In this document: in pieces, positions 23,905 through 37,306 of the stretch
Layout: each line of letters starts with the position of its first letter
Position numbering within the stretch: position 1 is the first letter of the stretch
NCBI GenBank assembly: GCA_007127745.1
Contig: SKYV01000117.1
Span: forward strand, 1 to 37,306
Direction of reading: 5' to 3'
Source of the DNA: Balneolaceae bacterium
GTDB lineage: Bacteria > Bacteroidota > Rhodothermia > Balneolales > Balneolaceae
DNA: 37,306 bases
Notes under the pieces: generated by a model
What the model saw: the letters and a program-made list of their open reading frames with translations, nothing else
The model's database searches: none
What the model was told of the DNA's origin: nothing
Translations under genes and position numbers: made by a program

Positions 23905-25599
23905 TTAACCTTTGGAACTTGTACTTACCCTGTATGGTCCAGGCAGACGCTTGAACCAGATTTTACCGTCTGACATTGCATAAAAACGATCGGCCATGTT
24001 TAGTCTGCTCTTGTCGTGGGTGATGTGGAGCACGGTTTTATCTTTTGTCAGTTCAGAGACAGACTCCGAGATCTCATCGGCCATGGCGCGGCCCAGGTTC
24101 GAGAGAGGTTCATCCAGTATCCAGATGGGTGTGTCTTTCAGCAGTGCCCGGGCGATGGCTACCCTCTGACGCTCCCCGCCGCTTAGCCGCAGACCCAGCT
24201 CTCCAACCTGTGTATCCAGCCCGTTTGGAAGTTTGGCAAATGCATCATCAAACCGGACGGCAGTCAGTGCTTCAATCAAGTCGCGGTCGGTGGCATCGGG
24301 ATTGGCAATCAGCAGATTGTTTCGGAGCGAGGTGTTGAAAAGGCGCGTGTGCTGTCCAACCACGGAGATAAACTTCCTGACACTTGCCCCATCAGCCATG
24401 CGAATGGACTGGTCTCCAATCAGTATGTCTCCGTCATCGGGTTCAAACCATTTTACCAGTAAATGGGCGATGGTGCTTTTGCCGCTGCCCGATGGCCCGG
24501 TTAAAAGTACGTGTTCTCCTGCACCGATTACCAGGTCGATGTGTCTGAGGACCCGGTCTTTGTTGTAGCTGAACGAAACGTTCATCATTGAAATGGAGGC
24601 GTCCTGAGGTTTAAAAACAGTGGTCAGTTTTTTGGGTTTTTCATCTGCTTTCACAGACGTTATGTCATCCAGCCGTTCGGCCGATTCCCTTGTTTCGTAA
24701 GCGTGCTGAACCGCATTTCCAATCTGCTCGAACGCCTCAAACGCCGTAAATACCCCGAGTACAACCGCCACCATTAGCAGGCCGCTCAATTCTCCGGATA
24801 AAACGAGTGGAAGCAATATCAGGAATGATGCCGGCAGGGATGCGTGGCTGACAGCGGTATAAAACCCCGATTCAAGGCTGAATGCTTTGGTGCGCCGTTT
24901 TTGTATATCCGATATATTTTCAATGGCTTTTTCCCCTTCGGCCATCCAGTTTTTGTGGCTGCCGGAATGAAGCAGGTCGGACGCACCCTGAACATGATCG
25001 TTCATAAACTGGCTTAAACCGGCAAAGTCATCGGCCAGATGATCGGTGATATCCCCGGCTTTTTTTCGGATGAGAAACGGAATAGCAAACACATTGATTA
25101 CCATCAGCAGCAGGATGGCCGCAGATAGCGTGAGCGAAAACCAGGCAGTGACGACTGTAGTCAAAAGGATAAAAAAGAGTGCAGAAAAAGCAGGAGAAAT
25201 TACTCTCAGGTAGAACTCCTGAAGCTGATCCACATCGTCTGAAAACCGGCTGAGCAGATCTCCCGACCGGTAACGGATGGCTTTTGCCGGCAGAACGGGT
25301 TCGACTGCATTGTAGAAACCGACCCGCAATTTCTGAAGAATTCTGAACGTAAGATCATGTGAAAAGAGCCGTTCGGTATAGCGGAACACTGCCCTTGAAA
25401 TACCGAAAAAGCGCACAGCAACAAGAATCAGGATCATGTCTAAAATGGGTGGCTGCAGGGCTGCCCAGGTAATCAGGTAACCGGAAGCCGCAATCAGCCC
25501 CACTCCGGCAAGAATGGTGAGCAGTACAAAAAACAGGCTGAGGGAAACCCGCCCTTTAAAACGGTGAAGCTCTGATATGATTTTTTTCAGTATATTCAT
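23905..25599 (-). CDS. cydC: Thiol reductant ABC exporter subunit CydC
   Basis: 564 aa; ABC TM domain plus LTGPSGSGKSTIAHLL, LSGGERQRVAIARALL, WILDEP. 4-bp overlap with cydD. Confidence 0.9.
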   Translation of the reverse strand: MNILKKIISELHRFKGRVSLSLFFVLLTILAGVGLIAASGYLITWAALQPPILDMILILVAVRFFGISRAVFRYTERLFSHDLTFRILQKLRVGFYNAVEPVLPAKAIRYRSGDLLSRFSDDVDQLQEFYLRVISPAFSALFFILLTTVVTAWFSLTLSAAILLLMVINVFAIPFLIRKKAGDITDHLADDFAGLSQFMNDHVQGASDLLHSGSHKNWMAEGEKAIENISDIQKRRTKAFSLESGFYTAVSHASLPASFLILLPLVLSGELSGLLMVAVVLGVFTAFEAFEQIGNAVQHAYETRESAERLDDITSVKADEKPKKLTTVFKPQDASISMMNVSFSYNKDRVLRHIDLVIGAGEHVLLTGPSGSGKSTIAHLLVKWFEPDDGDILIGDQSIRMADGASVRKFISVVGQHTRLFNTSLRNNLLIANPDATDRDLIEALTAVRFDDAFAKLPNGLDTQVGELGLRLSGGERQRVAIARALLKDTPIWILDEPLSNLGRAMADEISESVSELTKDKTVLHITHDKSRLNMADRFYAMSDGKIWFKRLPGPYRVSTSSKG

Positions 25600-27347
25600 T
25601 GGAGCCTCTCAGGGTCGAATATCAGTTCATCCTTGAGGCCGGGAAGCAGCCGGTCAGGCTCTCCGGATTCCACAATCACACCATTTTTTATGACCGACAG
25701 ACGGTCTGATGCCAGTACAGAGTGGGTGCGGTGACTCACCATCATTATAATACGGCCACGGCTGAATTCTTTTAACGACTCCATAATTTTCTCTTCGAGC
25801 TCGGTATTTAGCGATGCAGCCGGTTCATCCAGAAGAAGAATCGGAGACTGTTTTAAAAATGACCGGGCCAGAGCAATTCGTTGCCGTTCTCCGCCGCTCA
25901 GGTTCATTCCGTTTTCACCCAGCATAGTGTTGAAGCCGTCGGGCATATTCTGAATAAAATCAAACGCGTGGGCGGCACGAGCAGCTTCGGCAACTTCAAA
26001 GAGCGGCGCATCGGGGTCGCCGATTTTTATGTTTTCGGCCACACTTTTAGAAAAGAGGTGCGGAAACTGCGGCACATAGGTGATTTGATTTCTCCAAAGA
26101 TCAGGAGGGAAGTTTTCCAGCAGCCTGCCGTTGACTAAAACCGAGCCGGAGTCCGGTTCAATAAATTTACTAAGCAGATGGAGCAGAGTGGTTTTTCCTT
26201 CACCGCTTGCCCCGGTCAGTGTGTGAATTTCACCGGGATTGAGCTGAAGGTTTACGCCATTTAATACAATTTCTTCCGTGAGGGGGTAAGAGTATTCAAC
26301 CTTTTTCAGTTCGATCGTGAAGGGTGGAGAAGGTAATTTTTTTGATGCATTTGCTTGAACCGAATGTTCTTTCCGGTCTAAAAGATCAAAAAGCTGCGCT
26401 CCGGATTCAGCCCCTTCCATCCCGGCGTGATGGGCAGCCCCGAAGGTTCTGAAGGGCAGGTAAAATTCTGGCGCCAGCAACAGTACAAACATTCCGGTCT
26501 GGAAGATCATCATTCCTTCAATCAGCCTCACCCCGACTTCTACCGCAACTACGGCAGTACTGACCGATGCGGCAAGCTCCAGCACCATCCCGGACAGAAA
26601 CGCGATTTTGAGTACACGCATGGTTGTGACCCTGAAAAGACGGCTGACATTGTTGATACTGCGACCGGCATATTTTTCGCGCCCGAAAAGCTTCAGCGTG
26701 TCCATTCCCTGGATGGTGTCGAGAAAATGGGCATTCATCCGGCGCAGGGAATTCCACTGTTCATGGATTTTGTCACCCGCTTTTGTGCCGATCAGGTACA
26801 TGAAAATGGGAATCAGCGGACCTGTAATCAGAAAGACGAGGCCGGTGGGCCAGTCAACCCACATCACAAAACCGAAAATGACCACCGGTATGGTGGCCAC
26901 CTGAATGGCGGCCGGAACGTATTGGGCGAAGAAATCATCAAGCCGTTCCACACCATTTAACTGGAGAGAGATGAGGTCACCGGTTTTTTCCTGCCTGAGC
27001 CGTACAGGGCCGAGCCTGTGCAGCTTTCGGAGTATTTTTTTTCTGTATTCAGTTTTAAGCACAACAGCCAGTCTCATGCCCAGCCAGGTTCTTATCCAAA
27101 CCAGCAGTGCTCTGACCAGTATGGCTGCAACGAGAATCAGAATCCAGGGCTGCATGGCATTGGGAATCCACTCCTGAAGAAATGCAGCATCGATCAGAAT
27201 ACTCAGGCTATACATCTGTGCAAGGATAACCAGGCCGCTCAAAACCGAAACGAAAAAGATTGCCAGGATAAATCCGCGCTGATGCAGAGCATCCCTGAAA
27301 AGCCTCGATTGGGCTTCGGCCACTTTATGGGGATGCACGGATTTCAT
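25596..27347 (-). CDS. cydD: Thiol reductant ABC exporter subunit CydD
   Basis: 583 aa; ABC TM domain plus LTGASGEGKTTLLHLL, LSGGERQRIALARSFL, LLLDEP. Lies between cydB and cydC. Confidence 0.9.
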   Translation of the reverse strand: MKSVHPHKVAEAQSRLFRDALHQRGFILAIFFVSVLSGLVILAQMYSLSILIDAAFLQEWIPNAMQPWILILVAAILVRALLVWIRTWLGMRLAVVLKTEYRKKILRKLHRLGPVRLRQEKTGDLISLQLNGVERLDDFFAQYVPAAIQVATIPVVIFGFVMWVDWPTGLVFLITGPLIPIFMYLIGTKAGDKIHEQWNSLRRMNAHFLDTIQGMDTLKLFGREKYAGRSINNVSRLFRVTTMRVLKIAFLSGMVLELAASVSTAVVAVEVGVRLIEGMMIFQTGMFVLLLAPEFYLPFRTFGAAHHAGMEGAESGAQLFDLLDRKEHSVQANASKKLPSPPFTIELKKVEYSYPLTEEIVLNGVNLQLNPGEIHTLTGASGEGKTTLLHLLSKFIEPDSGSVLVNGRLLENFPPDLWRNQITYVPQFPHLFSKSVAENIKIGDPDAPLFEVAEAARAAHAFDFIQNMPDGFNTMLGENGMNLSGGERQRIALARSFLKQSPILLLDEPAASLNTELEEKIMESLKEFSRGRIIMMVSHRTHSVLASDRLSVIKNGVIVESGEPDRLLPGLKDELIFDPERLQ

Positions 27348-27356
27348 GAATATGGA

Positions 27357-28370
27357 TTAACTTGTTGGGATCGAATCTCGGGTCACTCGTTGGCGGAATA
27401 CATAGTAACTGTAGGCCTGATAGCCAAGGACGATTGGCAGAAAAATAAGTGCCACCACACTCATGATGGTCAGGGTCAGCTCACTGGAAGATGCATTGTA
27501 TACCGTCAGAGACCAGTCGATGTTTAACGTTGACGGCATTAATTTCGGAAACAGTCCTTCGAATGCCACAATGGTTCCGAAGATGATAGTACCGCCCGTT
27601 GCGGCAAACGACCAGCCAAACCGGTTTGCCCGCAGCAGAAAATATCCGGCTATAAAGCTGATGATAGCCAGCAGCGGAAGGGTTCCGGGAATCAATCCAA
27701 ATTCATCAAACAAAACGGTGTAAAGATAGCCGAGAAGGGCAAAAACCAGCAGCAAAACGCCGGAGGGAATCCAGATCATTTTGGCAACTTTTTCGGCACG
27801 TTCCATCAGCGGCCCCTCAGTTCGAAGTGTGAGGAAGATAGCCCCGTGCAGGGTAAACATGGCAGTGGAGGCAAGGCCGCCCAAAATGGCGTACGGAGAC
27901 AGCAGGCCAAACAGTCCTCCATGAAAGTTCATGTCTTCCCCGATCGGCAGCCCCATTACGATGTTGGTAAGTGCCACGCCCCAGATAAAAGCTGGAATCA
28001 GGCTTCCCCAGAAGATGAAATGGTCGGCCGTTTTTTTCCAGAACGGTTTATCCACTTTTGAGCGGAATTCAAACCCGACAGCCCTGACAATCAACGCGAG
28101 GAGAATGAGCAGAAGCGGCAGGTAAAATCCGCTGAACAGAGTGGCATACCAGTGTGGAAAGGCGGCAAACATGGCACCGCCTGCTGTAATCAGCCACACT
28201 TCGTTGGCATCCCAGAACGGGCCGATGGTATTGATGCAGACCCGGCGGTCTACATCATCCCGGCTGATAAACGGCATCAGAATGCCCACGCCAAAATCAA
28301 AACCTTCAAGAAAGAAATAGCCGATAAAGAGAACGGCAATCAGAATAAACCAGATCAGTTGAAAATCCAT
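27357..28370 (-). CDS. cydB: Cytochrome d ubiquinol oxidase subunit II
   Basis: 337 aa; FFLEGFDFGVGILMPF, GPFWDANEVWLITAGGAMFAAFPHWYA. Confidence 0.96.
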   Translation of the reverse strand: MDFQLIWFILIAVLFIGYFFLEGFDFGVGILMPFISRDDVDRRVCINTIGPFWDANEVWLITAGGAMFAAFPHWYATLFSGFYLPLLLILLALIVRAVGFEFRSKVDKPFWKKTADHFIFWGSLIPAFIWGVALTNIVMGLPIGEDMNFHGGLFGLLSPYAILGGLASTAMFTLHGAIFLTLRTEGPLMERAEKVAKMIWIPSGVLLLVFALLGYLYTVLFDEFGLIPGTLPLLAIISFIAGYFLLRANRFGWSFAATGGTIIFGTIVAFEGLFPKLMPSTLNIDWSLTVYNASSSELTLTIMSVVALIFLPIVLGYQAYSYYVFRQRVTRDSIPTS

Positions 28371-28441
28371 AACATTATTTAAATCATTAATTTAATTCTA
28401 TTTCAATGTGCTACTCTAAGTCGCTTTGTTCAGCACCGGTT

Positions 28442-29842
28442 TTAATACACGAATGCATCGGAGTCTTTGGAGTCATCATCCTCAGAAGCCTCTTTTTTCT
28501 TCTTGTTCTCTTTCGGAATTCCGGGCTTGGAAAATCTGATGATAAGAAAGACGGCAACGGCAGCCAGAAAACCGTAAACAAGTGTGAATGATGCCATGCT
28601 GATCCAGATGGATGTGCCGGTTACCGCCGGAGAAACCCCGTCGGCCGTTAACAGCAGCCCGTACACTACCCACGGCTGACGCCCCATTTCAGTAACAATC
28701 CACCCGGCCGTGTTGGCGATGTAGGGGAGGAAAATGAAGGCGATAGCTATTTTATGAAACCAGGTGGCGGTCTGAAGTTTATCCTTCCACCACAGAACGA
28801 GCCCGGTGATTGCCAGGAAAATAAACAGCATGCCAAGGCCCACCATAATGCGGAATCCCCAGTAAACTACAGCCACCGGTGGTATGTAACTTCCTTCACC
28901 GTGTATTTCTTCCATTTCGGCCTGAAGATCATTCATTCCCCTTACTTCCGATGTAAGATTATTGTGAGCCAGTACACTGAGCATGTAGGGCAGGCGTACT
29001 TCACGCATGGAGGTTCGGTTTTCCTGATCGATAATCGCAAATAGTGAAAAACTGGCCGGTTCTTCAGTTTCCCAAAGGCCTTCCATGGCGGCCATTTTCA
29101 TCGGCTGGCTCTGTACGGTATCCTGTGCCTGGCTGTGGCCGGTGGTTGCTGTGAGCAGAGAAGCAACCGCGGTAAATACCAGTGCAATGCGTGCAGATTT
29201 TTGAAAAATCTCTTTTTGATTACCCCGCAACATCATCCAGGCGCTGATACCGAGCACAAACAATCCGCCCGTGACGAATCCAGCAATAATGGTATGCGGC
29301 ATCTGAACCAGCAGTCGTTCATTCAGCAGAATGGCAACAAAATCGGTCAGTTCTGCCCGGCCGCCTACAATATGATACCCGACCGGTACCTGCATCCAGG
29401 AATTGGCCATCAAAATCCAGATGGCCGACAGGTTGGAGGCAATGGCCACAAGCCAGATACAGAGCAGGTGCACTCCTTTTTTCAGTCGGTTCCAGCCAAA
29501 AATCCAGAGCCCCAGAAAGGTTGATTCCAGGAAGAAGGCCATCAGGGCTTCAATGGCCAGAGGAATCCCGAAAATATCACCCACAAACCGGGAATATTCA
29601 CTCCAGTTCATGCCAAACTGAAATTCCTGCACTATTCCTGTAACCACTCCCAGAGTAAAAACAATGATAAAGAGCTTGCCAAAATACTTGGTTAGTTTTT
29701 TATATGCCGTATCTCCGGTGCGGTACCAAAAGGTTTGCATGATGGCGACAAGAACCGAAAGGCCGAGTGTTAAGGGAACAAAAATGAAGTGATAAATCGT
29801 GGTAATGCCGAATTGCCAGCGGGCTAAATCTAATTCTTCCAT
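28442..29842 (-). CDS. cydA: Cytochrome ubiquinol oxidase subunit I
   Basis: 466 aa; LARWQFGITTIYHFIFVPLTLGLS, NSWMQVPVGY, EMGRQPWVVYGLL. Confidence 0.96.
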   Translation of the reverse strand: MEELDLARWQFGITTIYHFIFVPLTLGLSVLVAIMQTFWYRTGDTAYKKLTKYFGKLFIIVFTLGVVTGIVQEFQFGMNWSEYSRFVGDIFGIPLAIEALMAFFLESTFLGLWIFGWNRLKKGVHLLCIWLVAIASNLSAIWILMANSWMQVPVGYHIVGGRAELTDFVAILLNERLLVQMPHTIIAGFVTGGLFVLGISAWMMLRGNQKEIFQKSARIALVFTAVASLLTATTGHSQAQDTVQSQPMKMAAMEGLWETEEPASFSLFAIIDQENRTSMREVRLPYMLSVLAHNNLTSEVRGMNDLQAEMEEIHGEGSYIPPVAVVYWGFRIMVGLGMLFIFLAITGLVLWWKDKLQTATWFHKIAIAFIFLPYIANTAGWIVTEMGRQPWVVYGLLLTADGVSPAVTGTSIWISMASFTLVYGFLAAVAVFLIIRFSKPGIPKENKKKKEASEDDDSKDSDAFVY

Positions 29843-30079: not shown

Positions 30080-32506
30080 ATGAATAGAAAATTATCACTC
30101 CTTATCGTTCTTCTTGTCACCGCAAGTATTTTGTTTCTCTTCTCTCGGCCGATAGGCCCATTGCCACCGTTAGGCACATTTTTTCATCCCGTTCAGGGTT
30201 TTTGGGCCAATGCAGAAATCAGAGAACGTTCCGGAACAATTCAAATCCCGTCAGAAAATATTTCCGAACCGGTAGAAGTTTACTTTGATGAACGGGGAGT
30301 TCCTCACATTTTCGCTCAGAATGATGACGATCTCTATTTTGCCCAGGGTTATATAACGGCACGAGACAGGCTCTTTCAAATGGAACTCCAGATCCGTGCT
30401 GCCGGAGGGAAACTTTCGGAGTGGCTTGGGCCGGATATGATAGAATATGACCGGAATCAGCGGCGTCTCGGGTTGCTGTACGGAGCTGAACGGGCAATAG
30501 AAGCCATTGAGCAGGATGAAGTGATAAAAAATGCGCTGAAGTCTTATGCCGATGGGATAAATGCTTTTGCAGAAACCCTGACATACGAAACCTTGCCGTT
30601 GGAATACAAAATTCTGGATATGGAGCCCGGCCGCTGGGAACCGCTCAATACCGCACTGCTGCTGAAATATATGACTCAAATGCTTGCAGGCCATAATCAG
30701 GATGTGCGGACAAGCAATGCACTTGCCCATTTTGGCGAAGAGTTTGTGAACCGGTTTTTGAGTACACGCTCATCGCTGATGGATCCCGTAATTCCTCCCG
30801 GCTCCCCCTGGGAATTTGAACCGATCCCGGCCGAAAAACCGGAAGAACTTTTTTTACCCGGATTTACCGACAACATTGAATTGTGGCAGCCCAATCCGCT
30901 GAACGGCAGCAATAACTGGGTGGTGGATGGTTCTAAAACGAATGCCGGATATCCGATACTTTCAAACGATATGCACCTGGGAATGACAATGCCCGCCATC
31001 TGGTACGAAGTTCAGCTCCACACTCCCGATCATAATGTGTATGGCGTGAGCCTGCAGGGCACCCCCGCGGTGATTGTCGGTTTTAATGAACATATTGCCT
31101 GGGGCTCAACAAATACCGGCTGGGATGTGATGGACTGGTACGAAATTACGTTTCGGGACGAAAACCGGCAGGAATATCTGCATGACGGTGAATGGCTGCC
31201 TGTCTCTGAGCGGGTTGAAATCATCAATGTAAAAGGGGCTGAAGCTGTACGGGATACCATTCTGTTTACCCATCACGGTCCGGTTTACGAAACAGGGCAG
31301 GAAACACCGGTTTCGCAAACCATACAGCGCGATCATGCACTGAGATGGATTGCACACGACCCCTCCAACGATCTCAGAACGTTTTATGAACTGAACCGGG
31401 CCCGAAATTATGACGATTTTCGTGAGGCTTTTCGTCACTATCAGGCGCCTGCCCAGAATATGAATTATGCCGGAACCGATGGCAATATTGCCATGCAAAC
31501 GGGAGGAAAGTTTCCGGTAAAATGGGAGTACCAGGGGCGAAGTGTCGGCGACGGCTCTGATTCTCGATACGACTGGCAGGAATTTATTCCATTTGAACAA
31601 AACCCCTATTCACTGAATCCCGGACGTGGATTTTTAAGCGCAGCAAACCAGTATCCGGCCGATGTGGATTATCCGTACTACCTGGGAGATTTTTTTGCGC
31701 CATACGAACGGGGAAGGAGAATCAACGATCTTTTGCATGAGATGGAGAACATCACAATAGAAGATTTTAAAACCATGCTGATGGATAATTTCAGCTACCA
31801 TGCATATAATTTGCTGCCGGTTTTGCTTCAGCGAACCGACACCTCGGAGCTGAATGAATCAGAACGTGAGTTGTTCGGGATGCTTGGCGACTGGAATTAT
31901 TGGAATGACGGTGAAAAAATTGAACCGTCCGTTTTCAGAGCCTGGTGGAGTGAAATATACAGTGCCATCTGGGACAATAAATACGATACAGAATATCCCA
32001 TGCGCCGGCCAACCAGAGATATTACACTGGATCTGATTATGGAAGATCCCGATTCTCATTGGTTCAACAATATCCAGACCGACACAACGGAAACACTGGA
32101 TGACCTGGTATTGATGTCGTTCAAAAGCGCCGTTGAAGAGTTGACCGGACGATATGGTGACCCCGGAGAAACCTGGCAGTGGGGATATGTGAACAACACC
32201 AATCTGAATCATATTGCCCAGATCCCCGGATTGGGTGTAATGAATGTATTTACCGGCGGCGGGCCCGAATCGATTAATGCAATATTTGGAAGCCATGGCC
32301 CGTCGTGGCGAATGCTCGTGGAGCTCGATCCTGATGGCGTACGGGGTTACGGGGTTTATCCCGGTGGACAGAGCGGCAATCCGGGCTCAAAAACCTTCGA
32401 TGAGTTTGTCGAAACCTGGCGTGCCGGTGAATTGTATGAGCTGAAATTTCTGAGTGAAGTTCCGGAATTCGGCGAAGATTTCTTGTTGGTAATACGGTTT
32501 GATTAA
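30080..32506 (+). CDS. Penicillin acylase family protein (Ntn hydrolase); ORF extends upstream to 29996 but Met at 30080 preferred
   Basis: MNRKLSLLIVLLVTASILFLFSRP signal/anchor; VYFDERGVPHIFAQNDDDLYFAQGYITARDRLFQME; NPLNGSNNWVVDGSKT (autoprocessing Ser); HHGPVYE. Confidence 0.92.
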   Translation: MNRKLSLLIVLLVTASILFLFSRPIGPLPPLGTFFHPVQGFWANAEIRERSGTIQIPSENISEPVEVYFDERGVPHIFAQNDDDLYFAQGYITARDRLFQMELQIRAAGGKLSEWLGPDMIEYDRNQRRLGLLYGAERAIEAIEQDEVIKNALKSYADGINAFAETLTYETLPLEYKILDMEPGRWEPLNTALLLKYMTQMLAGHNQDVRTSNALAHFGEEFVNRFLSTRSSLMDPVIPPGSPWEFEPIPAEKPEELFLPGFTDNIELWQPNPLNGSNNWVVDGSKTNAGYPILSNDMHLGMTMPAIWYEVQLHTPDHNVYGVSLQGTPAVIVGFNEHIAWGSTNTGWDVMDWYEITFRDENRQEYLHDGEWLPVSERVEIINVKGAEAVRDTILFTHHGPVYETGQETPVSQTIQRDHALRWIAHDPSNDLRTFYELNRARNYDDFREAFRHYQAPAQNMNYAGTDGNIAMQTGGKFPVKWEYQGRSVGDGSDSRYDWQEFIPFEQNPYSLNPGRGFLSAANQYPADVDYPYYLGDFFAPYERGRRINDLLHEMENITIEDFKTMLMDNFSYHAYNLLPVLLQRTDTSELNESERELFGMLGDWNYWNDGEKIEPSVFRAWWSEIYSAIWDNKYDTEYPMRRPTRDITLDLIMEDPDSHWFNNIQTDTTETLDDLVLMSFKSAVEELTGRYGDPGETWQWGYVNNTNLNHIAQIPGLGVMNVFTGGGPESINAIFGSHGPSWRMLVELDPDGVRGYGVYPGGQSGNPGSKTFDEFVETWRAGELYELKFLSEVPEFGEDFLLVIRFD

Positions 32507-32585
32507 TCCCACAATAGTGATTGGTCCAAAGATAATTTTTGGATTAAATTATTTAGAAAGAATTAGCTTTTAAAGCCTGAAAAGA

Positions 32586-33593
32586 ATGAGAATTGAACGA
32601 TTCAAATTCCCGCCTGTTAAAATAAATTCTGCGGGAGAGCAACGCAGTGTAGGGTACGAATTTGAATTTACCGGTGTAGATATGGAAGAAGTGGCCTTGA
32701 TAATCACAGATCTGTATGGCGGATCGGTTGTGAAAAAAACCGCTTATCTGTTTGAGATTCAGAATACGGCTTGTGGCACCTTCAAACTGGAGCTCGATGC
32801 ACAGCTTTTGCGGGATAAGAAATACGAAAAAATGCTCAAATCTGTAGGTATTGATCTCAATAAATTCAGGAAAAAAGATACCATGGAAGACTCCATCCGC
32901 GATATGGCGTCTGCCATTGTGCCATTCGAGATTATTACGCCACCGGTCAGGCTTTCAGCCATGAAGGTTCTGAACAAACTGGTTGATGCGCTCCGTGAAC
33001 ACAAGGCAAAAGGTACGGGGAGTTCGGTGCTCTATGCATTTGGCCTTCATTTGAATCCCGAAATTCCGGATAAAAGTATCGAAAGTTTGCTGAACCATCT
33101 GCGGGCCTATGTGATGCTCGACCCGTGGATTCGCCGGGACGCTGACATCAACATCAGCCGGCGATTAACACCGTTCATTAACGAGTATGAAGAGGAGTAC
33201 ATTCAGCACATCCTCAATCCGGATTACCGGCCGAACCTGGAAAAATTGATACGCGATTACTTCAAATATGATAACTCCCGAAATCGTCCACTCGACATGC
33301 TGCCTGTATTTATGCATCTCAATGAAGAGCTGACAACAAGCCTGATTAAAGATACCATCACCTCATCCCGGCCAACCTATCATTACAGGCTGCCAAATTG
33401 TTCACTCGAAGATGAAAACTGGACCCTGGCCGCTGAATGGAACCGTTGGGTGTTGGTAGAGAAAATGGCGGCCGATGAAAAGGTTTTGAATCAATATTCA
33501 AGAGCCTGGCTGAAAATGCGAAAAGACACCCTGATCGGGTTTGAAAACAAATGGGTTGAACTGATGAACCGGTGGGTGAAAAATGCCGTTTAA
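32586..33593 (+). CDS. Amidoligase-like protein (glutamine-synthetase-fold COOH-NH2 ligase, Amidoligase_2-like)
   Basis: 335 aa; SVGYEFEFTGVD (GxEfEf), FKLELDAQL, YAFGLHLNPEIPD, NSRNRPLDMLPVFMHL are consistent with the family. Confidence 0.75.
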   Translation: MRIERFKFPPVKINSAGEQRSVGYEFEFTGVDMEEVALIITDLYGGSVVKKTAYLFEIQNTACGTFKLELDAQLLRDKKYEKMLKSVGIDLNKFRKKDTMEDSIRDMASAIVPFEIITPPVRLSAMKVLNKLVDALREHKAKGTGSSVLYAFGLHLNPEIPDKSIESLLNHLRAYVMLDPWIRRDADINISRRLTPFINEYEEEYIQHILNPDYRPNLEKLIRDYFKYDNSRNRPLDMLPVFMHLNEELTTSLIKDTITSSRPTYHYRLPNCSLEDENWTLAAEWNRWVLVEKMAADEKVLNQYSRAWLKMRKDTLIGFENKWVELMNRWVKNAV

Positions 33594-34380
33594 ACAAAGG
33601 CCGGTTATAGGAGTTACAGGACCTGATGAAGGCGGCACCGGCGCATGGCTGTTTACGGCATTATCTGTACGATTGGCAGGAGGAAAGCCGGTCAGGGTAA
33701 CGGTAGAATCACCCCGTAATATTGATGAACTTGACGGTTTGATACTCGGCGGCGGGGCTGATGTGGAACCTTTAAAATACGGTCAGGAACGCATAGAACG
33801 GGCAACCCTCGCCAAAGATGCCAGAACCATTTTTGAGTGGATTTTGTCCATTCTCTTTTTTCCGGTTTACTGGCTAGCCCGATACTTCCAGCACACCAAA
33901 TCGGCTCCGATAGATACCGAAAGAGATAAACTGGAACTGAATCTGCTGGAACAGGCGCTGAACCATGGCAAGCCGATTCTCGGAATTTGCCGGGGAATGC
34001 AGTTGATGAATGTTCATTTTAAGGGGACCCTGCATCAGGACATTAGCGGATTTTATGAAGAAACGCCGCAGGTATCATCCATCTTTCCCAAAAAGCGAAT
34101 TACGGTCAATAAGGGCTCAACACTGGAAGCTATTCTCCAAACCGATATCTGCAATGTAAACGCGCTGCACAATCAGGCCATAGACCGCCCGGGCGAGGGG
34201 GTGATACCGGTTGCCAAAGAACAGAATAACAGTGTGATACAAGGTGTTGAGCACCAGGATTACCCGTTTGTGATTGGTGTGCAGTGGCATCCGGAATATT
34301 TGATTCAGATTCGAAGGCAGCGCCAACTTTTTAAAACGTTGGTTAAAGAAGCGAAAAGAAGTTTTTTATCGTTACATTGA
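33583..34380 (+). CDS. Gamma-glutamyl-gamma-aminobutyrate hydrolase / peptidase C26 family (class I glutamine amidotransferase fold)
   Basis: 265 aa; DGLILGGGADVEPLKYGQE, PILGICRGMQLMNV (nucleophile Cys), ALHNQAID, GVQWHPEYL. Overlaps the amidoligase gene by 11 nt. Confidence 0.9.
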   Translation: MPFKQRPVIGVTGPDEGGTGAWLFTALSVRLAGGKPVRVTVESPRNIDELDGLILGGGADVEPLKYGQERIERATLAKDARTIFEWILSILFFPVYWLARYFQHTKSAPIDTERDKLELNLLEQALNHGKPILGICRGMQLMNVHFKGTLHQDISGFYEETPQVSSIFPKKRITVNKGSTLEAILQTDICNVNALHNQAIDRPGEGVIPVAKEQNNSVIQGVEHQDYPFVIGVQWHPEYLIQIRRQRQLFKTLVKEAKRSFLSLH

Positions 34381-34759: not shown

Positions 34760-37306
34760 TCAATTACCGTGATTTCCCAAATTATGTAGCTGCATCCGGT
34801 ACTGTTCAATTTGGTTGTACAGAGGATGTTGAGGCGTGCCAACAGATTCAAGCCGTTTATCTGCCTGGTCCAGGATTTCAGCAGCTTTTTTAAATTTGTC
34901 CAAAGCCGCATAACCATTAGCAAGCCATATTTTTCTGTTTACCGATGAGTAAATTTGTCCAGGCAAATCATGAGCTTCAAGAGATGCGGTCATTTCATCT
35001 ACACTTAATTGATAATTTCCCGATTGGAAATGGCAGATGGATCGGGTTTCAAGCAGATTTGCTTTATCGTTTGGATACTCAAGGAATTTTTCTCCATCGT
35101 TATCTGTCATTTCATCGAGTAAAACAAGCCCCCGATCCGGATCTCCTTTTGAGCAGTAAGCCCATGCCAGCCAAACTTTTGATGCCGCACCGATATATTG
35201 GTTTTGTCGTCCCGTTTGTTCTGTGATTTCGGCAACTCGTGAAAAGTTTTCAAGGGCATTGTCAAAATCATTGAGCCACATGAAGTACCGGCCGCGTACA
35301 ATGTAGTGTGAAATCCAGTTTTCAAATTCCTGACGGTGAAATTCAGCCCATTCGCGATTAGCCTTTTCCGATTCTTCGAAAGCTTTCTTTGAGTGCCCCA
35401 TCAAAAAAAGTGTTTCTGCCATGGCGTTTCTTACTGAAGCCCTGTAATCTCGAGGTTCTTCATAAATTTGATCATAGAGCGCAATCGCTTTTCGGGCATT
35501 GGTTATTGCCTGATCAAAATTGCCAAGATTGCGTTCCAGGCTCACACTGTTGGCAAGGCTCACGGCATACGGCCTGCTTTCATCACCGTGATTTTGTCTG
35601 AAACGCTCCGTTGCCATACTTCTGTGTTTCGATGCTTCCTCCAAATTACCCATGTTTTGATACATACTTGCCAGCCTGTCGAAAAGCAGTGCTTCGGTAT
35701 CCGGATCTTCGCTGAGATGATTACTGTAATTGGCGTAAACATCCTCCAAAAGTTCTAAAGCGTTATGTGGATTGCCGCGGTACTGTTCCAGCCAGCTGCG
35801 GGAAATGCGTATTTTTGCAAAATCGGATACGTACTGATCCGGTTCTGATTTCAAAGATTCGGCTTCCAGCAGTTTATCTTCAACTTCATCCAAATTGTTG
35901 CCAGCAAAAATGAGATTTTGGGATTTCTGTTGGAGTGCACGGGCAAGATCTTCCGGGCGCAGGGAGTCTTCGTTGCGGGCAAGCTCAACGGCGGTATCCA
36001 GTAAAAGGTTTGTTTTTTGCTGGCTTGGCTGCGAATAGTAGGAGTAGACACCTGCAATGGCCAGTAATATTTCAAAACGCTCTTCAGGAGATGCCCCATC
36101 GGGATCCAGGGCACGTTCAGCGCCAATTTCAAGAAGTTCATCAGTTGTTGGAAGCTGATCGCGGGGCTGATCCGGTTCTGCTGCACGAAACAGATCAAGC
36201 AGAAAAACCTGCAACGCTTCTGCTCTGCTGAGGGCCTGTTCTGCCCGTTCGGTTTCCTGTTGTGCCTGTAAAAGTGCTGCTTGTGTTTTCTGCGAATGCC
36301 AGGTGATGGTAGCCGCGTAACCAATAAGCAGCAGTACAATGGCAGCCGCCGAAATTACGCCGACAGTGTGCCGTTCAAAAAATTTTTTGCCGCGATAAAT
36401 TACAGAATTGGGATGGGCAGAAACCGGATTTCCGGTGAGATAATTCTCAATATCCGATGCCAGTTTTTCGGCCGATTCATACCGGCGTTCCGGTTCTTTG
36501 CGCAGAGCTTTCAGTACAATCGTGTCCAGATCTCCCTTCAGGTGCTTTTTCAGCTGATCCGGTTTCGTTCGGCCGGCCGCACTGACCTGTATTCCTGTGG
36601 CATCATTTTTCTTTTGGTTCGACGGAGTTTTTGTGATGGCCGTGCTCGGGCGGGTGGGTTCTTCCTGGCAGATAATCTGCTCAATTTCGCTGGGAGAACG
36701 TCCGTTTACTTCATAAGGCCGGCAGCCGCTCAGCAGTTCGTAAAGCACCACGCCGAGCTGGTAGATATCCGATGCGGTGGTGATGGCGTCGCCGCGCACC
36801 TGTTCGGGACTGGCATAGGCCGGTGTGAGCGGCAGCAAGCCTGTTTGGGTAACCGGCAGATCTGTGGTATCAGTAATTTCCGGGTTCAGGATTTTTGCAA
36901 TGCCGAAGTCGAGTAGTTTAACCTGTCCGTTATTTGTTACCAGAATATTCGATGGTTTCAGGTCGCGGTGCACCACCAGTTTTTGATGAGCGTATTGCAC
37001 AGCACCACAAACTTTTCGGAAAAGGTCAAGCCGTTCGGCAATGGTTAGCTGCTTCTCATTGCAATAGCGATCAATCGGTTTGCCGTCGACATATTCCATG
37101 GCAAACCAGGGCTGACCGTGTTCGGTGATGCCGCCGTCGAGCAGTTTGGCGATATGGCGGTGGCTGAGGCTGGCCAGGATCTGGCGTTCGGTCAGAAACC
37201 GTTGGGTTTGGTTTTGGGAGGTGATGCCGCCGGGAATCAGCTTGAGTGCCACCTGCTGGCGGAACTGTTCATCATCGCGTTCGGCCAGGAACACCGTACC
37301 CATCCC
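34760..37306 (-). CDS. Serine/threonine protein kinase with TM helix and C-terminal TPR-like region, N-terminus outside window
   Basis: Frame open at window end (GMGTVFLAERDDEQF is a glycine-rich loop); VVHRDLKPSNILV, LLDFGIAKIL, TM segment VGVISAAAIVLLLIGYAATI, then helical repeats. Confidence 0.92.
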   Translation of the reverse strand, partial: GMGTVFLAERDDEQFRQQVALKLIPGGITSQNQTQRFLTERQILASLSHRHIAKLLDGGITEHGQPWFAMEYVDGKPIDRYCNEKQLTIAERLDLFRKVCGAVQYAHQKLVVHRDLKPSNILVTNNGQVKLLDFGIAKILNPEITDTTDLPVTQTGLLPLTPAYASPEQVRGDAITTASDIYQLGVVLYELLSGCRPYEVNGRSPSEIEQIICQEEPTRPSTAITKTPSNQKKNDATGIQVSAAGRTKPDQLKKHLKGDLDTIVLKALRKEPERRYESAEKLASDIENYLTGNPVSAHPNSVIYRGKKFFERHTVGVISAAAIVLLLIGYAATITWHSQKTQAALLQAQQETERAEQALSRAEALQVFLLDLFRAAEPDQPRDQLPTTDELLEIGAERALDPDGASPEERFEILLAIAGVYSYYSQPSQQKTNLLLDTAVELARNEDSLRPEDLARALQQKSQNLIFAGNNLDEVEDKLLEAESLKSEPDQYVSDFAKIRISRSWLEQYRGNPHNALELLEDVYANYSNHLSEDPDTEALLFDRLASMYQNMGNLEEASKHRSMATERFRQNHGDESRPYAVSLANSVSLERNLGNFDQAITNARKAIALYDQIYEEPRDYRASVRNAMAETLFLMGHSKKAFEESEKANREWAEFHRQEFENWISHYIVRGRYFMWLNDFDNALENFSRVAEITEQTGRQNQYIGAASKVWLAWAYCSKGDPDRGLVLLDEMTDNDGEKFLEYPNDKANLLETRSICHFQSGNYQLSVDEMTASLEAHDLPGQIYSSVNRKIWLANGYAALDKFKKAAEILDQADKRLESVGTPQHPLYNQIEQYRMQLHNLGNHGN

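Follow-up and report, generated by a model that had tools for sequence, protein, structure and literature searches.

A two-gene amidoligase and C26 hydrolase cassette in Balneolaceae, with a predicted role in the synthesis and cleavage of gamma-glutamyl amides

The locus and its genes

The window, i.e., the whole stretch of DNA that was analysed (37,306 nucleotides of a Balneolaceae genome, from a source assembly of 3.07 Mb in 287 contigs), carries three consecutive open reading frames on the plus strand, which encode a predicted exported, Ntn-type acylase of the penicillin-amidase family (30080..32506, 808 aa), an Amidoligase_2 protein predicted to be a carboxylate-amine ligase (32586..33593, 335 aa), and a Peptidase C26 protein predicted to be a gamma-glutamyl hydrolase of the PuuD-SpuA kind (33583..34380, 265 aa). 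The positions given in a preliminary description of the locus were confirmed, and both the 79-nt gap between the end of the acylase and the start of the ligase and the 11-nt overlap of the ligase and C26 genes proved exact. The three family calls made there were borne out by Pfam, with E-values of 7.1e-206 for PF01804, 1.8e-62 for PF12224, and 5.7e-47 for PF07722, and, given that all three open frames are kept in dozens of relatives, they are not chance ORFs.

On the opposite strand, cydAB and a pair of ABC transporters lie upstream of the locus, and a Ser/Thr kinase with TPR repeats lies downstream. A scan of the locus for promoters and terminators returned little or nothing above chance and was uninformative; the overlapping ligase and C26 genes may be translationally coupled.

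Of the two possible acylase starts, 30080 was preferred to 29996, given the length of many orthologues (807-812 aa) and the hydrophobic export signal that opens at Met29, as judged by eye. The protein presents an invariant Ntn nucleophile motif, G304-S305-N306-N307-W308, with the beta-chain nucleophile in GSNNW, and its closest solved structure is the D-succinylase 7eby.

The amidoligase

The ligase, of which the genome has one copy and 14 control genomes have none, scores 211.9 bits over 32586-33593 against PF12224, for which the gathering cut-off is 22. In an alignment of 12 diverse homologues, the motifs G23-Y-E25-F-E27, E69/D71, E115, H155-x-N157, R232/R234, R262, and H266-x-R268-xx-N271 were invariant, and these were compared with the motif list of the carboxylate-amine ligase superfamily in PMC2588565. 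The GhExE motif is represented by G23-Y-E25-F-E27 on strand 21-29, where the G and both E residues are invariant, and the HxN-type motif by H155-x-N157 on strand 4 (154-159), while E69/D71 and E115 sit on the strands after strand 1. The candidate motifs of strands 5 and 6, which were assigned by eye, are the conserved R232/R234, R262, and H266-Y-R268-L-P-N271, in which H replaces E at the first place of the Ex[RK]x2D-type motif, and the last position is D in two homologues (L082 and L084).

The AlphaFold2 model of the ligase has a pLDDT of 86 and places these motifs on or near strands, and a Foldseek search with this model against the PDB returned YbdK, plant glutamate-cysteine ligase, and glutamine synthetase as the top matches, all of them weak (E 0.008 or worse, TM ~0.3) and intermixed with unrelated kinases. 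The sequence itself gave no significant match to solved structures. Given the position of the conserved motifs in the model and the nature of the fold matches, it is likely that ATP activates a carboxylate, which is then attacked by an amine.

The C26 partner and its hydrophobic insert

The Cys-His-Glu triad of the C26 protein (C136/H236/E238, in the GICRG and QWHPE motifs) is intact, and it is kept in all the aligned partners that cover those positions. The protein also matches the glutamine amidotransferase family PF00117, with an E-value of 3.3e-17. When it was compared with solved proteins using phmmer, gamma-glutamyl hydrolases were recovered at E 1e-22 to 3e-12 and glutaminase subunits at 8e-7 or weaker, and Foldseek returned SpuA (with Glu or a glutamyl-thioester), Lin1909, and PuuD at 6e-19 to 3e-18, against 1e-11 for the GATase of GMP synthase. 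By both sequence and modelled fold, the protein is thus nearer to the solved gamma-glutamyl hydrolases than to the glutaminase subunits. It scored 61.8 bits against the PuuD equivalog NF008471, well below the NCBIfam cut-off of 266, and is best described as PuuD-like rather than as a predicted PuuD.

The C26 protein has an inserted hydrophobic helix, a putative membrane-associating segment, at 33829..33894 of the plus strand (residues about 83-104, IFEWILSILFFPVYWLARYFQH; DSSP helix 83-104), which was modelled at only moderate pLDDT and whose best 17-residue hydropathy mean, 1.78, is borderline for a membrane-spanning helix. Apart from the protein of the window, 76 partner C26 proteins were compared, of which 47 have the helix and 29 do not. 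When its presence was mapped on the ligase tree, three changes were needed, against a mean of 17.6 after shuffling (0/500 shuffles were as low), a contrast that is inflated by close relatives on a tree with weak deep forks. Given this low number of changes, the ligase and hydrolase subtypes travel together. The inserted helix could bind the membrane, and in the lineage with the insert, to which this genome belongs, the hydrolase may be located on the inner side of the cytoplasmic membrane; alternatively, the helix could be a dimer or ligase contact. The insert is a concrete hint that the chemistry may happen at the membrane in about 60% of the sampled pairs.

Joint inheritance of the ligase and the C26 gene

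A comparison of 61 related genomes found the ligase together with this C26 subtype in 39 and neither gene in 22, with no mixed cases, a pattern for which the p-values overstate independence, given that the genomes are related. A strong C26 homologue in the 39 ligase carriers had an E-value of 8e-43 or better, and the other 22 genomes gave either no match or one at background level (1e-4 or weaker). In 30 regions from these relatives, the C26 gene comes after the ligase in every case in which the contig extends far enough. In the best 80 ligase matches among 85,462 species genomes, which represent several phyla, the C26 gene is adjacent in 76, with the ligase first and an overlap that is commonly 4-26 nt; the remaining four are lone ligases. 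The linkage of the amidoligase and the C26 gene that had been proposed from the locus alone is therefore upheld by the co-occurrence (39/39 versus 0/22), by the adjacency, and by the earlier description of such a neighbourhood in PMC2588565, and the unit is a two-gene overlapping cassette, always inherited jointly in this lineage.

Of 398 genomes sampled from the phylum, only 33 had the ligase, nearly all within this order, so the pair is an accessory cassette. The closest named relatives of the ligase are from Balneolaceae, including Rhodohalobacter, and the pair is also carried by plasmids of Rhodobacterales, where it is annotated as an amidoligase with either a gamma-glutamyl-GABA hydrolase or a type 1 glutamine amidotransferase; one plasmid pair has an aldehyde dehydrogenase beside it. 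The more distant ligases of alphaproteobacterial plasmids are single, without a C26 gene, and no close relatives of the ligase were found in deposited phages. PF12224 ligases as a whole are widespread, with at least 590 confirmed stretches, and both phages and plasmids carry them; proposals that connect them with gamma-glutamyl peptides or the modification of the cell wall go back more than 15 years. Many of the ligase hosts are halophiles or alkaliphiles by name; a link with saline habitats is not claimed, given that the hosts were ranked by their similarity to a query whose own group is rich in halophiles.

The clustering of neighbours at 63 dereplicated loci returned no third gene conserved across phyla. 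As for a hidden third partner, the mechanosensitive channel by the Halomonas-type copies and the GlnE after the Wenzhouxiangella-type copies were considered and set aside, as both look lineage-specific.

The neighbouring acylase

The preliminary description had joined the acylase to the pair in a single unit of amide-bond enzymes, of which the ligase and C26 part stood and the acylase part was not supported. A lack of linkage in relatives, which that description had named as grounds for refutation, was seen for the acylase and not for the other two genes. Among 37 genomes of the family, an acylase orthologue (at least 49% identity) is present without the pair in nine, and the pair is present without an acylase orthologue in four; the exact counts depend on the identity cut, and some of these genomes are incomplete. 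No significant association between the acylase and the pair was found within the family (Fisher p 0.26, or 0.66 when only the more complete genomes are counted). Two genomes, G002 and G013, have the same flanking genes, but only G002 carries the ligase-C26 pair. In the closest species, the acylase and the ligase are separated by 1272 nt that contain PIN-domain and DUF6364 genes, a toxin-antitoxin-like pair.

The acylase adjoins the pair only within this genus; outside it, a DDAH-like gene is found beside the acylase, as is carAB in several genomes, the latter name having been assigned by eye. Given the independent distribution of the acylase, the interruption in the closest species, and the different neighbours outside the genus, its adjacency to the pair is best interpreted as an insertion site peculiar to this lineage. 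As a minimal pair of genes that are inherited together without exception and are naturally present or absent between matching flanks, the cassette is well suited to a search for the product by metabolite comparison.

Proposed mechanism and alternative explanations

Our preferred reading, to which we give slightly better than even chances, is that of a two-gene cassette in which the ligase, probably of the GS fold, makes a gamma-glutamyl amide and the PuuD/SpuA-like hydrolase cleaves one. In the ligase reaction, a carboxylate would be activated with ATP and joined to an amine; analogy with the superfamily of the ligase and the nature of its C26 partner suggest that this is most probably the gamma-carboxylate of glutamate. 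The Cys-His-Glu hydrolase would cleave a gamma-glutamyl amide, either at the same bond once this has served its purpose or at a form that it takes later. We infer the direction and the coupling of both reactions, which would follow the logic of PuuA and PuuD, i.e., glutamylate, use or process, and deglutamylate. To our knowledge, no substrate has been proven for the PF12224 ligases, and no member of the ligase-C26 pair has been biochemically characterised.

The gamma-glutamyl-type product suggested in the preliminary description is plausible, given that the partner resembles gamma-glutamyl hydrolases. In Firmicutes, the same ligase family adjoins an Aig2-type gamma-glutamyl cyclotransferase instead of the C26 gene (PMC2588565), and the gene lists of phages and prophages show an amidoligase with a gamma-glutamyl cyclotransferase. 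A product of this type is favoured because two unrelated enzymes that cleave gamma-glutamyl bonds adjoin a single ligase family. On the other hand, with no step in between, the two enzymes would merely undo each other's work in a futile cycle, and the neighbourhood has no conserved gene for an intermediate enzyme. The existence of lone amidoligases, which means that the hydrolase is not obligatory everywhere, also counts against this reading, as do the match of the C26 protein to class-I GATases and the individually weak fold matches of the ligase.

This GATase match, together with the strict pairing and co-evolution that fit a two-subunit enzyme, speaks for an alternative in which the C26 protein is a glutaminase subunit, from which ammonia derived from glutamine is channelled to a ligase that amidates a carboxylate, in the manner of MurT/GatD. 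We consider this unlikely, given that the sequence and the fold of the C26 protein are closer to PuuD, SpuA, and Lin1909 than to any GATase, that the ligase also occurs alone, and that enzymes with the GS fold are able to work with free ammonia or amines. Nor would a glutaminase role explain the gamma-glutamyl cyclotransferase that takes the place of the partner in Firmicutes (PMC2588565).

A modification of the envelope or the membrane, in which a lipid, a peptidoglycan precursor, or a membrane protein receives a glutamyl or similar group from the ligase, which a membrane-bound hydrolase removes or edits, seems distinctly unlikely. The hydrophobic helix, which is largely clade-specific on the ligase tree, is consistent with such a role, as are the cell-wall modification suggested for phage amidoligases (PMC10580990) and the inserted TM segments of some Pup ligases (PMC2588565). 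Against this, 29 of the 76 partners have no helix, the helix itself is of moderate confidence and could serve other contacts, and the pair has no conserved envelope gene as a neighbour. A fuller and about equally doubtful form of this idea is that, in a broad and largely saline or alkaline bacterial set, the pair runs a membrane-associated cycle of gamma-glutamylation and deglutamylation on a lipid-linked or envelope amine, in which an inserted helix, co-evolved with the ligase, would anchor the hydrolase to the cytoplasmic membrane.

Finally, a system in which the ligase makes, the C26 protein trims, and the exported acylase finishes the product outside the cell is very improbable and already largely refuted by distribution. 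Most genomes of the genus that have both do carry the three genes in a row and in the same direction, with gaps of 29-228 nt, but the acylase and the pair are gained and lost independently, a toxin-antitoxin-like pair is interposed in the closest species, and the acylase is not adjacent outside the genus, lying elsewhere in the family by a DDAH-like gene or carAB; the acylase was therefore rejected as a third component on distribution and synteny.

Comparison with known systems

The two-gene cassette favoured here shares with PuuA/PuuD of E. coli and SpuA of Pseudomonas, which break down polyamines via gamma-glutamyl intermediates, the combination of a ligase, here of probable GS fold, and a C26 hydrolase that is closest to PuuD and SpuA. 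It differs in that the ligase is a GCS2/YbdK-sized Amidoligase_2 rather than a GlnA-type PuuA, and in that no conserved oxidase or aldehyde dehydrogenase adjoins the pair. The YbdK/GCS2 carboxylate-amine ligases provide the best, though weak, fold matches and have the ExE and HxN motifs in common with the ligase, whereas its sequence matches no solved structure significantly. The glutamine-dependent amidation of MurT/GatD resembles the present case in that a ligase gene lies beside a partner of the class-I GATase fold, but MurT is Mur-ligase-like, whereas the ligase of the window has GS-type motifs and its partner is C26/PuuD-like.

The "second family" of the 2008 pupylation paper is presumably PF12224. 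The neighbourhood of a ligase and a glutamine-amidotransferase-like thiol peptidase was described in that year in Biology Direct (PMC2588565), with proteobacteria named for this partner, and the pair agrees with it in the superfamily and type of the ligase, the type of the partner, and the motifs. It differs in its presence in Balneolota and other phyla, its strict co-inheritance, and the sub-lineage of hydrolases with the hydrophobic helix. The ligase-C26 pair thus belongs, in a new lineage, to a neighbourhood known since 2008, of which it is possibly a membrane-associated sub-variant.

Genes adjoining the amidoligase and C26 genes

Among the dereplicated loci used for the clustering of neighbouring genes, nine carry a gene with a mechanosensitive-channel domain that is divergent to the ligase gene and lies approximately 50-90 nt away from it, as exemplified by Halomonas (L115:7530-9881). 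At one Azospirillum locus (L156:7914-8738), a two-component system and a gene for undecaprenyl-diphosphate phosphatase come after a lone amidoligase gene, a downstream neighbourhood which possibly hints at a role related to the cell envelope.

Nitrogen metabolism is faintly hinted at by the gene of GlnE, the glutamine synthetase adenylyltransferase, which is found downstream of the C26 gene (the PuuD/SpuA-like hydrolase) and on the same strand in four loci, including that of Wenzhouxiangella (L125:11919-14468).

Between the acylase and the ligase of G012, which is the closest relative, lie two genes, one with a PIN domain (PIN_3) and one of the DUF6364 family (L032:9872-10544), in an arrangement that is VapBC-like, i.e., of the toxin-antitoxin type. 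Beyond the C26 gene, the minus strand of the window encodes a Ser/Thr kinase with TPR repeats (34760-37303), which extends almost to the end of the contig, with only a few bases left, and homologues of this gene come after the ligase and C26 pair in a few relatives (L043 and L061).

Likeness to known systems

On the minus strand of the window, cydA, cydB, and two ABC transporters (23905-29842) resemble the cydABCD cluster. One other likeness, seen in a single case, is that of a Rhodobacteraceae plasmid, in which an aldehyde dehydrogenase gene (L158:3296-4822) directly upstream of the amidoligase and C26 genes recalls the Puu pathway, by which E. coli breaks down polyamines via gamma-glutamyl intermediates.
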